DNA from: Halopenitus persicus
GTDB lineage: Archaea; Halobacteriota; Halobacteria; Halobacteriales; Haloferacaceae
Length of the DNA stretch: 64,000 nucleotides
Reading direction: 5' to 3'
Assembly (NCBI RefSeq): GCF_002355635.1
Contig: NZ_AP017558.1
Location: 2,108,001 to 2,172,000, forward strand
Shown here: piece by piece, positions 37,012 to 41,019 of the stretch
Position numbering within the stretch: the first letter of the stretch is position 1
How the letters are laid out: the number at the start of each line of letters is the position of its first letter
Notes under the pieces: generated by a model
What the model saw: the letters and a program-made list of their open reading frames with translations, nothing else
The model's database searches: none
What the model was told of the DNA's origin: nothing
Position numbers and translations under genes: made by a program

Positions 37012-40000
37012 ATGACGCAGACGGGGCTCACCGAGTTCTCATCCGGCGGGGACGCCGCCACCGACGCGGGCGACGGCACCGACGACGGCCGGTCGGCGGA
37101 GGTCGTTCGCGAGGAGGCTCGCGTCGTGGCCGGCGGTGGCGGCGGCCACGTCAACGACGTGGTCGACGTCGACGACGCGAAGTTCCCCGACTCGACCGGA
37201 ACCGTCGAGCTGGCGGTCACGCAGGTCGATTACGCCGTCGAGGGGCGCGGCAGCGACGAGTATCCCGTCGTCCACGTGTTCGGGCGCCGGCCGAACCCCG
37301 ACGGCGAGGACGTCCGTGAACACCTCCGCGTGCTCGGCGTCGAGCCCTACTTCTACGTGCCGACGGCCGACCTCGAGCGCGACCCGGTCGAGGAGTACGA
37401 CGTCGTGATCGGCACCCGAGAATCGGACGCCAACGACGTCGCCTACGAGAGCATCCGCGGCGAGCCGCTCACCCGGATCGTCACGCGCACGCCGCGTGAC
37501 GTCGGAAACATCCGTGACGACTTCGAGACGACCTTCGAGGCCGACATCCTGTTCCCGAACCGCTTTCTGATCGACAACGGGATCGCCGGCGGGCTTCGGG
37601 TCGAGGAGCGGCGGCTCGAGGACGGCCGGATCCAGGTCGCAGAGAACCACCTCGAACCGGCCGCCGTCGAGGCCGACGTCCGGGTGAACACCTTCGACAT
37701 CGAGGTCGACGACCGGCGAGGATTCCCGGAGGACGGTGAGGAACCGATCGTCTGTCTGACCAGCCACGACTCCTACGACGACGAGTACGTCGTCTGGCTC
37801 TACGAGGCTCCCGGGGGTGACGCGTCGCCGCCCGAGGATCTACCGGAGTACGAGGGGATCGAGGACGGCGGCATCGACGCCCGCGTCGAGTCCTTCGAGA
37901 CCGAGGAGGCGATGCTGGCGGCGTTCATCGACTACCTCCGCGAGACCGACCCCGACGTCCTCTGCGGGTGGAACTTCGAGGACTTCGACGCGCCCTACCT
38001 CCTCGATCGGCTGGAACGGCTCGATTCCCGGACCGACCACGACCTCTCGGTCGACCGGCTCTCGCGGATCGGCGAGGTCTGGCGATCGGGCTGGGGCGGC
38101 CCGGACATCAAGGGGCGGGTCGTCTTCGACCTGCTGTACGCCTACAAGCGCACGCAGTTCACGGAGCTCGAGTCCTACCGGCTCGACGCCGTCGGGGAGA
38201 CGGAACTCGACGTCGGCAAGGAACGATACGCCGGCGACATCGGAGACCTGTGGGAGCAGGACCCGGAACGGCTGCTCGAGTACAACCTTCGTGACGTCGA
38301 GCTCTGCGTGGAGATCGACCGCAAGCAGAACCTGATCGACTTCTGGAACGAGGTGAAGAAGTTCGTCGGCTGCAAGCTCGAGGACGCGCCCACGCCCGGC
38401 GACGCGGTCGACGTCTACGTCCTGCACAAGGCCCACGGCAAGTTCGCGCTCCCGACGAAGGGCCAACAGGAGTCCGAGGAGTTCGAGGGCGGCGCCGTCT
38501 TCGACCCGATCTCCGGCGTCAAGGAGATGGTGACCGTACTCGATCTGAAATCACTCTACCCGATGTGCATGGTGACGATCAACGCGGGCCCGGAGACGAA
38601 AGTCGATCCCGACGAGTACGACGGCGAGACGTACCTGGCGCCCAACGGGACCCACTTCCGCAAGGAGCCGGACGGCATTATGCGCGAGATGGTCGACGAA
38701 CTGCTCTCCGAGCGCGAACGGAAGAAGGAGCTCCGAAACGACCACGATCCGGGCACCCAGCCGTACGAGCAGTACGACCGACAGCAGGCAGCTGTCAAGG
38801 TTATTATGAACTGTTTCACGCCGGACACCGACGTCCTCACGCCGGACGGCGTACGGTCGATCACGGACCTCGAGGTCGGCGACGAGGTGTACTCGCTCGA
38901 TCCGGAGACGGAGGAAATGGAAGTCAAGAGCGTCGAGGAGACCCACGCGTATCCGGAGTATCGCGGCGAGCTCGTGGACATCGAGACTTCCAACATCGAC
39001 TTTCGGGTCACGCCGAACCACCGGATGCTCGTCCGGAAGAACGAGACGAACGGGATCACCGAAGACGGCTACGAGTTCGTCGAGGCCGGCGACCTCGATC
39101 GGGCGACGAACTACGAGCTCCCGCACGGCTGGGACGGGCCTGACGGCGATCGGATCGAGGAGGTGGATCTCACGGAACTGATCACCGGCGAGTACGAGGT
39201 GTGGGTCCGGCCGGAAGTACACGGACATACCTTCACCGCCGAGCTCGGCTGGACGCCCCGGCGCGTCCCGAAGGCCGACCTCGGGCAGGTCGGCTACGTC
39301 TTTACTGCCGAGGAGTTCGAGGACCACCGTGAGTACGTCGAGTCGGTCTGTGAGACGAGTTTCATCCACCGCGAATCCGGGCGGAAGTGGGTCCCACGGA
39401 CCTACGACGGCGACGACTTCCTCGACCTGTTGGCGTGGTACATCACGGAGGGGAACGTCTACACGTCCGAGGAGAAGACGTTCGGGAACCACCACCGCGG
39501 ATCCGCGACGACGGTGAAGATCGCCCAGAACGCGATCCCGGACGGCGGCGGCCATCACGCAGGGATCGGCGACCTCCTCGACGGGATGGGGCTCGACTGC
39601 TACGTCGACGACCGCGCACATCAGTTCACGTCACTGCTCCTCGGGGAGCTGCTTCGAGAACGCTGTGGCGGGGACAGCTTCGACAAGCGGATCCCCGAGT
39701 TCGTCTTCGAGGCGACCGGCGAACAGAAGCGGCGATTCCTGGAGACGCTCATCGACGGCGACGGAGATAGACAGTCCAACTCCTGGCGGTATACGACCTC
39801 GAGCGACCGGCTTCGGGACGACGTTCTCAGGCTCTGTGCGCACCTGGGGTTGACCGCGAAGTACGCGCGAGACAGCGGGAGTTGGCGGATCTACGTGGGC
39901 GAAGACACGAAGAACACGCTCCGGATGCACCGGAGCGGGTCGACGAGCCAGGCCGAGGAGGGCGTCTACTGCGTCACCGTTGCCGACAACCACACGCTGC

Positions 40001-41019
40001 TTGCCGGGCGCAACGGAACGTTCCAGTTCGTCGGTCAGTCGCTGTACGGCGTCACGGGATGGGATCGATTCCGACTCTACGACAAGGAGGGCGCAGCGGC
40101 CGTGACGGCGACGGGCCGTGAGGTGATCTCCTTCACCGAGGAGGCGGCGTCGGAAATTGATATGGAAGTGACATATGGGGACACTGACAGCGTTATGTTG
40201 GAGCTCGGACAGGAAACCGGAGTCGAGTCCGCCATCGAGCAGTCGTTCGCGATCGAGGACCACATCAACGGCCGATACGACGACTTCGCGCGCGAGGAGT
40301 TGAACGCGGAGATGCACCGCTTCCAGATCGAGTTCGAGAAGCTCTACCGGCGCTTCTTCCAGGCGGGACGCAAGAAGCGGTACGCGGGTCACATCGTCTG
40401 GAAGGAGGGGAAGGACGTCGACGACATCGACATCACCGGCTTCGAGTACAAGCGCTCGGACATCGCGCCGATCACGAAGGAGGTGCAAAAGCGCGTCATC
40501 GAGACGATCGTCACCGGTGACGACATCGAGGAGGACATGGCGGAGGTGAAGACGTACCTCTCGGACGTCATCGACGACTTCCTCTCCGGGGAGGTGGATC
40601 TCGAGGAGATCGGCATCCCGGGCGGGATCGGGAAGCGTCTGGACGCCTACGAGACGGACACCGCGCAGGTCCGCGGGGCGAAATACGCCAACCTGCTGCT
40701 CGACACGAACTTCGATCGGGGATCCAAGCCGAAGCGGCTCTACCTCGAGAAGGTTCACCCGGACTTCTGGCGGCGGATCGAGGACGAACGGGGGCTCGAT
40801 CCCCACACCGATCCGTTGTACGGCGAGTTCAAACGCGATCCGGACGTGATCTGCTATGAGTACGCCGACGAGATCCCCGAGGAGTTCTCCATCGACTGGG
40901 AGCTGATGCTCGAGAAGACGCTGAAGGGACCGATATCACGAGTGATCGAGGCGCTCGGGATGAGCTGGGATGAGATCAAAACCGGACAGGAGCAGAGCGG
41001 CCTCGGTCAATTCATGTGA
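37012..41019 (+). CDS. polB: DNA polymerase B (family B replicative polymerase) with in-frame intein
   Basis: A 1335-aa precursor, of which 926 aa are polymerase once the 409-aa intein is removed. The exonuclease domain has NTFDIEVDD (about 225), CGWNFEDFDAPYL and YNLRDVELC. Motif A is VLDLKSLYP (Asp511). Motif B, QQAAVKVIMN, is interrupted after Asn600 and resumes SLYGVTGWDRF. Motif C is TYGDTDSVM (from residue 1054). KxY-type thumb residues follow (FEYKRSDIAP). The start MTQTGLTEFSSGG has a TATA box 27 nt upstream. Codons around motifs B and C are unusually AT-rich. Confidence 0.97.
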   Translation: MTQTGLTEFSSGGDAATDAGDGTDDGRSAEVVREEARVVAGGGGGHVNDVVDVDDAKFPDSTGTVELAVTQVDYAVEGRGSDEYPVVHVFGRRPNPDGEDVREHLRVLGVEPYFYVPTADLERDPVEEYDVVIGTRESDANDVAYESIRGEPLTRIVTRTPRDVGNIRDDFETTFEADILFPNRFLIDNGIAGGLRVEERRLEDGRIQVAENHLEPAAVEADVRVNTFDIEVDDRRGFPEDGEEPIVCLTSHDSYDDEYVVWLYEAPGGDASPPEDLPEYEGIEDGGIDARVESFETEEAMLAAFIDYLRETDPDVLCGWNFEDFDAPYLLDRLERLDSRTDHDLSVDRLSRIGEVWRSGWGGPDIKGRVVFDLLYAYKRTQFTELESYRLDAVGETELDVGKERYAGDIGDLWEQDPERLLEYNLRDVELCVEIDRKQNLIDFWNEVKKFVGCKLEDAPTPGDAVDVYVLHKAHGKFALPTKGQQESEEFEGGAVFDPISGVKEMVTVLDLKSLYPMCMVTINAGPETKVDPDEYDGETYLAPNGTHFRKEPDGIMREMVDELLSERERKKELRNDHDPGTQPYEQYDRQQAAVKVIMNCFTPDTDVLTPDGVRSITDLEVGDEVYSLDPETEEMEVKSVEETHAYPEYRGELVDIETSNIDFRVTPNHRMLVRKNETNGITEDGYEFVEAGDLDRATNYELPHGWDGPDGDRIEEVDLTELITGEYEVWVRPEVHGHTFTAELGWTPRRVPKADLGQVGYVFTAEEFEDHREYVESVCETSFIHRESGRKWVPRTYDGDDFLDLLAWYITEGNVYTSEEKTFGNHHRGSATTVKIAQNAIPDGGGHHAGIGDLLDGMGLDCYVDDRAHQFTSLLLGELLRERCGGDSFDKRIPEFVFEATGEQKRRFLETLIDGDGDRQSNSWRYTTSSDRLRDDVLRLCAHLGLTAKYARDSGSWRIYVGEDTKNTLRMHRSGSTSQAEEGVYCVTVADNHTLLAGRNGTFQFVGQSLYGVTGWDRFRLYDKEGAAAVTATGREVISFTEEAASEIDMEVTYGDTDSVMLELGQETGVESAIEQSFAIEDHINGRYDDFAREELNAEMHRFQIEFEKLYRRFFQAGRKKRYAGHIVWKEGKDVDDIDITGFEYKRSDIAPITKEVQKRVIETIVTGDDIEEDMAEVKTYLSDVIDDFLSGEVDLEEIGIPGGIGKRLDAYETDTAQVRGAKYANLLLDTNFDRGSKPKRLYLEKVHPDFWRRIEDERGLDPHTDPLYGEFKRDPDVICYEYADEIPEEFSIDWELMLEKTLKGPISRVIEALGMSWDEIKTGQEQSGLGQFM
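38812..40038 (+). other. Intein in PolB motif B with LAGLIDADG endonuclease domain
   Basis: 409 aa between VIMN and SLYG of polymerase motif B. It starts CFTPDTDVLTPDG (block A, Cys1), with block B FRVTPNHRMLVR (TxxH). Two LAGLIDADG-type helices, DLLAWYITEGN and RRFLETLIDGDG, mark a dodecapeptide homing endonuclease. Block F is CVTVADNHTLLAG, and block G ends FQFVGQ followed by Ser+1. The usual penultimate His and terminal Asn are replaced by Gly and Gln, an uncommon but known type of splice junction. The reading frame is intact, so splicing is expected, though not shown. Confidence 0.95.

Follow-up and report, generated by a model that had tools for sequence, protein, structure and literature searches.

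A Gly-Gln-terminated intein at motif B of the haloarchaeal DNA polymerase PolB and its relatives

Results and Discussion

In the 64,000-nt stretch of the Halopenitus persicus genome analyzed here (hereafter, the window), the gene for a family B DNA polymerase carries an in-frame insert that is very probably a class 1 intein of the haloarchaeal polB-b allele, mobile and equipped with an endonuclease; its terminal residue, Gln409, would cyclize with the help of His394. It is not a canonical His-Asn intein, as it ends in Gly-Gln; judged from its sequence and its relatives, it is nevertheless genuine, was read correctly and is nothing unusual within its lineage. What had appeared as a lone oddity thus becomes a testable pattern across haloarchaeal intein sites.

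Anatomy of the intein

The PolB precursor (PolB3 group, the haloarchaeal 'PolB1') is encoded at positions 37012..41019, has 1335 amino acids and a likely ATG start at 37012; all coordinates in this paragraph are on the plus strand. Its reading frame runs uninterrupted through a 409-aa insert between VIMN and SLYG of polymerase motif B (38812..40038), and neither motif A (DLKSLYP) nor motif C (YGDTDS) is interrupted in this protein. The insert begins with Cys1 (codon TGT, 38812..38814), the nucleophile of step 1, which is invariant across all aligned relatives, and contains block B TPNH with Thr67 and His70 (residues 67-70; 39010..39021), the LAGLIDADG motifs LLAWYITEG with the acidic Glu213 (residues 206-214; 39427..39453) and LIDGDGD (residues 313-319; 39748..39768), and block F VYCVTVADNHTLLAG (residues 385-399; 39964..40008), in which Cys387 occupies position F:4 and His394 (39991..39993), the proposed helper of Gln cyclization, position F:13. 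It closes with block G, FQFVGQ (40021..40038; FVGQ is residues 406-409), where Gly408 stands in place of a penultimate His and the last codon, CAG (40036..40038), encodes Gln409. Ser+1 of the C-extein (SLYG; codon TCG, 40039..40041) follows directly. A preliminary description of this DNA had given the same anatomy, from the VIMN/SLYG junctions and Cys1 to FVGQ before Ser+1, and its coordinates proved exact when the TGT, CAG and TCG codons were placed. Its precursor of about 150 kDa agrees with the computed mass of 151.1 kDa; spliced PolB (926 aa) and the intein would weigh 104.8 and 46.3 kDa, respectively. As predicted from the sequence, the tryptic peptide VIMNSLYGVTGWDR would be diagnostic of spliced PolB, and VIMNCFTPDTDVLTPDGVR and NGTFQFVGQSLYGVTGWDR of the precursor.

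Pfam profiles for Hint (9e-8), Hint_2 (1e-8) and LAGLIDADG_3 (PF14528; 4e-7) matched the insert. The fold predicted with AlphaFold2 from 60 relatives (pLDDT 91, pTM 0.90) had PI-PkoII (KOD PolB intein 2, PDB 2cw7) as its top solved-structure match (E 4e-21), and this intein was the top match by sequence too. Taken together, the Pfam and predicted-fold matches indicate that the domain assignment is not due to chance. PI-PkoII, the nearest solved structure, shares the Hint and LAGLIDADG fold at an aligned identity of only 16%, and it also sits at PolB motif B.

The class 1 features Cys1, block B TxxH (here TPNH), a cyclizable terminal residue (Gln409) and Ser+1 are all present, and an alignment of 60 sequences has Cys1, Thr67, Asn69, His70 and Ser+1 invariant. 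The class 1 penultimate His is absent, with Gly408 here and Gly or Ser in 83/83 inteins at the site; however, some 5% of functional inteins carry a different residue at this position, so that this His is not strictly defining (PMC4031507). Among named alleles, the intein shares its host gene with polB-b of Halobacteria (Soucy et al. 2014, PMC4071816), and we infer that this published name denotes the motif B site: polB-b, with 38 halobacterial examples, is the commonest PolB allele in that study, as the motif B intein is here. The main text of that paper does not discuss the terminal residue (Gln or glutamine is not mentioned).

Since the insert cuts motif B, PolB that retains it should be inactive. 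The small contig holds another PolB-family gene (G000:C2:79849-80955; L174:520-2694, plus strand), which has a 725-aa frame free of inteins and may be of the PolB2 type. In H. volcanii, deletion succeeded for polB2 and failed for polB1 (unpublished data quoted in PMC7776575); the second gene is therefore probably no substitute for the window's PolB.

Distribution of the Gly-Gln ending

Relatives of the intein were identified in 92 of the 293 genomes of the order. Among 83 related inteins at the VIMN/SLYG point, 77 end in Gly-Gln, four in Gly-Asn, two in Ser-Asn and none in His-Asn; this survey proceeded by similarity to the window's intein, so an unrelated intein at the same point could escape it, and the 83 include one (L074) whose host is another PolB, about 1490 aa long. 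A scan of genome contigs with a single sequence yielded four loci only. Outside the order, the PolB intein of L137 shares the motif B site and the Hint and LAGLIDADG fold and differs in having Ser1 and an AHN end (YAHN). By these counts, Gly-Gln is the rule for the haloarchaeal motif B intein, a well-spread variant rather than an oddity. The preliminary description, which had proposed this check of how far the ending has spread at the site, was correct about the anatomy and made too much of the rarity.

By the same description, its reading would be refuted if all inteins at the site ended in His-Asn and the Gln were an error, which the counts above contradict. A sequencing error was rejected because the same ending is found in dozens of independent genomes (e.g., in the intein of L004, 88% identical to the window's) and because an Asn codon lies two base changes from CAG. 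More generally, a dead intein or a sequence error is extremely improbable: the noncanonical dipeptide is the sole hint of it, the frame is open, and the insert splits motif B, so that PolB would be inactive without splicing. Gln is conserved, along with all the other main residues for splicing, in about 80 polymerases, which speaks for adequate splicing of the window's intein.

Both haloarchaeal replicative polymerases have inteins that end in Gly-Gln or Lys-Gln (at PolB motifs A and B and in Pol-II), in contrast to His-Asn at PolB motif C and, in the window's genome, in GyrB, RFC and RNA polymerase. In the surveyed PolB genes, all 17 motif A inteins end in Gly-Gln. The motif C inteins end in His-Asn in 18 of 18 cases (17 of the form Ser1...Leu-His-Asn in the surveyed genes, plus L213). 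It is common for a haloarchaeal PolB gene to carry inteins at two or all three of motifs A, B and C (L013, L015, L025, L036, L043, L046, L047, L049, L050, L053, L056, L060, L064, L066, L077, L079, and L084); in such genes, the A and B inteins end in Gly-Gln (B in Asn in a short clade) and the C inteins in His-Asn with Ser1. At the Pol-II (DP2) site, 30 genes (L135 and L183-L211) were read, of which nine were empty and 21 had an intein, 17 ending in Gly-Gln (including L135, from another order) and four in Lys-Gln. Some Pol-II inteins are mini-inteins of 178-184 aa ending in Gly-Gln or Lys-Gln, and in some, Asn replaces the block F His.

Three further inteins of the same genome, all outside the window, end in His-Asn: those of GyrB (G000:C1:155669-156940; VFVHN, then S; with an HNH-like endonuclease region), the RFC small subunit (G000:C1:2026491-2028626; TVMHN, then T), and RNA polymerase A'' (G000:C1:1697727-1699061; VVTHN, then T). 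A genome-wide peculiarity was thereby ruled out, and the Gly-Gln ending is therefore tied to polymerase intein lineages and not to the organism.

Proposed splicing route and alternatives

We propose that, after translation, an N-S shift at Cys1, aided by Thr67 and His70, would transfer the N-extein to Cys1, from which it would be passed to Ser+1. Gln409, rather than Asn, would then cyclize to a glutarimide and free the joined PolB, and an O-N shift would complete the reaction. As the window's intein has no penultimate His, His394 of block F would be the main helper of this cyclization, acting alone. A review places Gln-terminal inteins on the class 1 route with Gln cyclization (PMC4031507), and in structures of Pol-II inteins the block F His adjoins the terminal Gln (PMC8229266, PMC8175363). 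This His is kept in 70 of 75 Gly-Gln polB-b inteins and in 17/17 polB-a inteins; on the other hand, five Gly-Gln inteins and several Pol-II inteins have Asn instead, so the residue would not be indispensable.

The chemical kinship to the Gln-terminal Pol-II (DP2) inteins suggested in the preliminary description holds; those of Pab, Pho, M. marisnigri and haloarchaea share with the window's intein the terminal Gln, the class 1 residues, the block F His and a polymerase host. They differ in Cys+1 and in their insertion site, and on the tree they acquired Gln independently. The haloarchaeal members mostly end in Gly-Gln, like the window's intein, whereas the Pho Pol-II intein ends in His-Gln (PMC8229266), and the structurally studied Pol-II inteins have the penultimate His that is absent here.

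These Pol-II inteins also provide the main grounds for supposing that Gly-Gln makes step 3 slow or dependent on salt, temperature or redox conditions and so acts as a switch on PolB supply. With Gln, the Pol-II inteins of Pab and M. marisnigri are slow to splice, and Asn speeds them up (PMC4031507); splicing of the Pho and Pab Pol-II inteins is temperature-dependent (PMC8175363), and one motif B clade went back to Asn. However, in the viral CIV RNR intein, Gln supports better splicing than Asn does (PMC4031507), so Gln alone is no predictor of slowness; moreover, Gly-Gln has been retained in 77 polymerases with no decay seen, and about 70% of the genomes lack the intein and hence manage without such a switch. 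The preliminary description had raised the possibility of slow or conditional splicing; we consider such a switch unlikely.

Less probable still is a step 3 without Gln cyclization, in which the C-terminus would be released by hydrolysis or another route and Gln would be passive. The missing penultimate His, the repeated loss of the block F His and the Val or Ala found at the terminal position of stand-alone relatives would agree with it, but the 83 polymerase inteins always end in Gln or Asn, the two cyclizable amides, and Val and Ala are confined to those stand-alone, splicing-dead relatives.

Origin of the terminal glutamine

On a rooted tree built without the last two intein residues, Gly-Gln lies at the base of the clade of PolB a and b inteins, whose sister group and outgroup consists of MCM, NadE and Nrd inteins with Gly-Asn ends and the block F His (support 99). 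Because this sister group is entirely Gly-Asn, the penultimate Gly is old in the family and the change was from Asn to Gln. These closest relatives (MCM/Cdc21, NadE, Nrd; ends of the form ...R(R/E)NGxxxxCGN) share the penultimate Gly, the block F His and the RNG motif, and differ in their terminal Asn, the Cys before Gly and a mostly Thr+1. On this topology, Gly-Gln is the inherited state of haloarchaeal PolB motif A and B inteins, which share a Gly-Asn ancestor with the MCM/NadE-type inteins. A wider tree, with a midpoint root and long branches, tentatively indicates three changes: Gln was acquired at least twice, in Pol-II and in the PolB a+b group, and was replaced again by Asn once.

The six Asn-terminal motif B inteins are short (353-358 aa), group with L091 (SH-aLRT 95-97), and differ in the splicing domain mainly at residues 394, 406 and 409. 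In five of them, Asn is found both at residue 394 (mostly His elsewhere) and at residue 406 (otherwise aromatic); the sixth, L092, has Gln394 and keeps Trp406. L091 and L213 are also short, yet they keep His394 and Gln409, with Phe (L091) or Pro (L213) at residue 406. Since five full-length inteins have Asn394 and yet end in Gly-Gln, loss of His394 can come first and does not on its own require an Asn end. With just two changes at residue 409 across the tree, the coupling of positions 394, 406 and 409 is beyond the reach of statistics and is put forward as a lead. The idea that Asn follows endonuclease loss or shortening, drawn from the six short inteins, is weakened by the short Gly-Gln inteins L091 and L213 and by the 178-184 aa Pol-II mini-inteins ending in Gly-Gln or Lys-Gln.

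A bolder reading, which we consider unlikely, treats the Gln end of haloarchaeal polymerase inteins as a setting of step 3 that has been under selection and has evolved more than once, given its separate gains in Pol-II and PolB a+b against the His-Asn ends of the other inteins read from these cells. Such a setting would be linked to the block F His and to the residue three positions from the end, and it might tune how fast the replicative polymerases splice. Within a single fold and host gene, nature supplies inteins with Asn or His in block F and with Gln or Asn as the last residue, so that cyclization of the two amides in the absence of a penultimate His can readily be compared, and this in a group amenable to genetics.

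Putative endonuclease and mobility

The insert has the marks of a LAGLIDADG (DOD) endonuclease, with two motifs bearing conserved acidic residues and structural matches to I-DmoI and PI-PkoII, and this endonuclease would home into intein-free polB alleles. The intein is patchily distributed, being present in slightly under 30% of the 293 genomes of the order and missing from a congener (G149), and intein and extein identities are only weakly correlated (rho 0.28; e.g., L039 and L044 are 78% identical in the intein and 69% in the extein). Together, the patchy presence, the absence from a congener and the weak correlation fit horizontal spread by homing, with cleavage predicted. The PolB homing endonuclease of Hvo is active in vivo and its intein has 437 aa (PMC3024317); judging by size, which is that of motif C inteins (431-439 aa here), it is probably not a homologue of the window's intein.

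The divergent PolB of about 1490 aa (L074:1229-5704, minus strand), on a 135 kb contig, has a Gly-Gln motif B intein approximately 46% identical to the window's, and this contig is a possible carrier between genomes. A search of a phage collection gave distant Hint matches only, and a plasmid collection gave no match.

Stand-alone intein-derived genes

A by-product more unusual than the Gly-Gln ending is a set of stand-alone ORFs in eight genomes (L078, L080, L081, L085, L087, L088, L089, and L090; e.g., L078:2486-3796, minus strand), which are about 410-440 aa long (a 700-aa open frame in L085) and align over intein residues 2-408. They have Gly for Cys1, Tyr or Phe for His394 and Val or Ala for Gln409, mostly lack Thr67 and Cys387, and keep the Hint scaffold and both LAGLIDADG motifs. 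Seven of the eight were placed in the tree as sister to the L074 PolB intein (98). From these replacements, they look like splicing-dead inteins that survive as endonuclease genes in their own right. In Haloferax, free-standing LAGLIDADG genes of a different Pfam family have been reported (PMC5867893), and we found no description of intein-derived ORFs like these eight. In a genome of another order, a stand-alone intein-like ORF of 381 aa (L139:1558-2700, plus strand) was also detected, which lacks Cys1 and ends in FSGSN.
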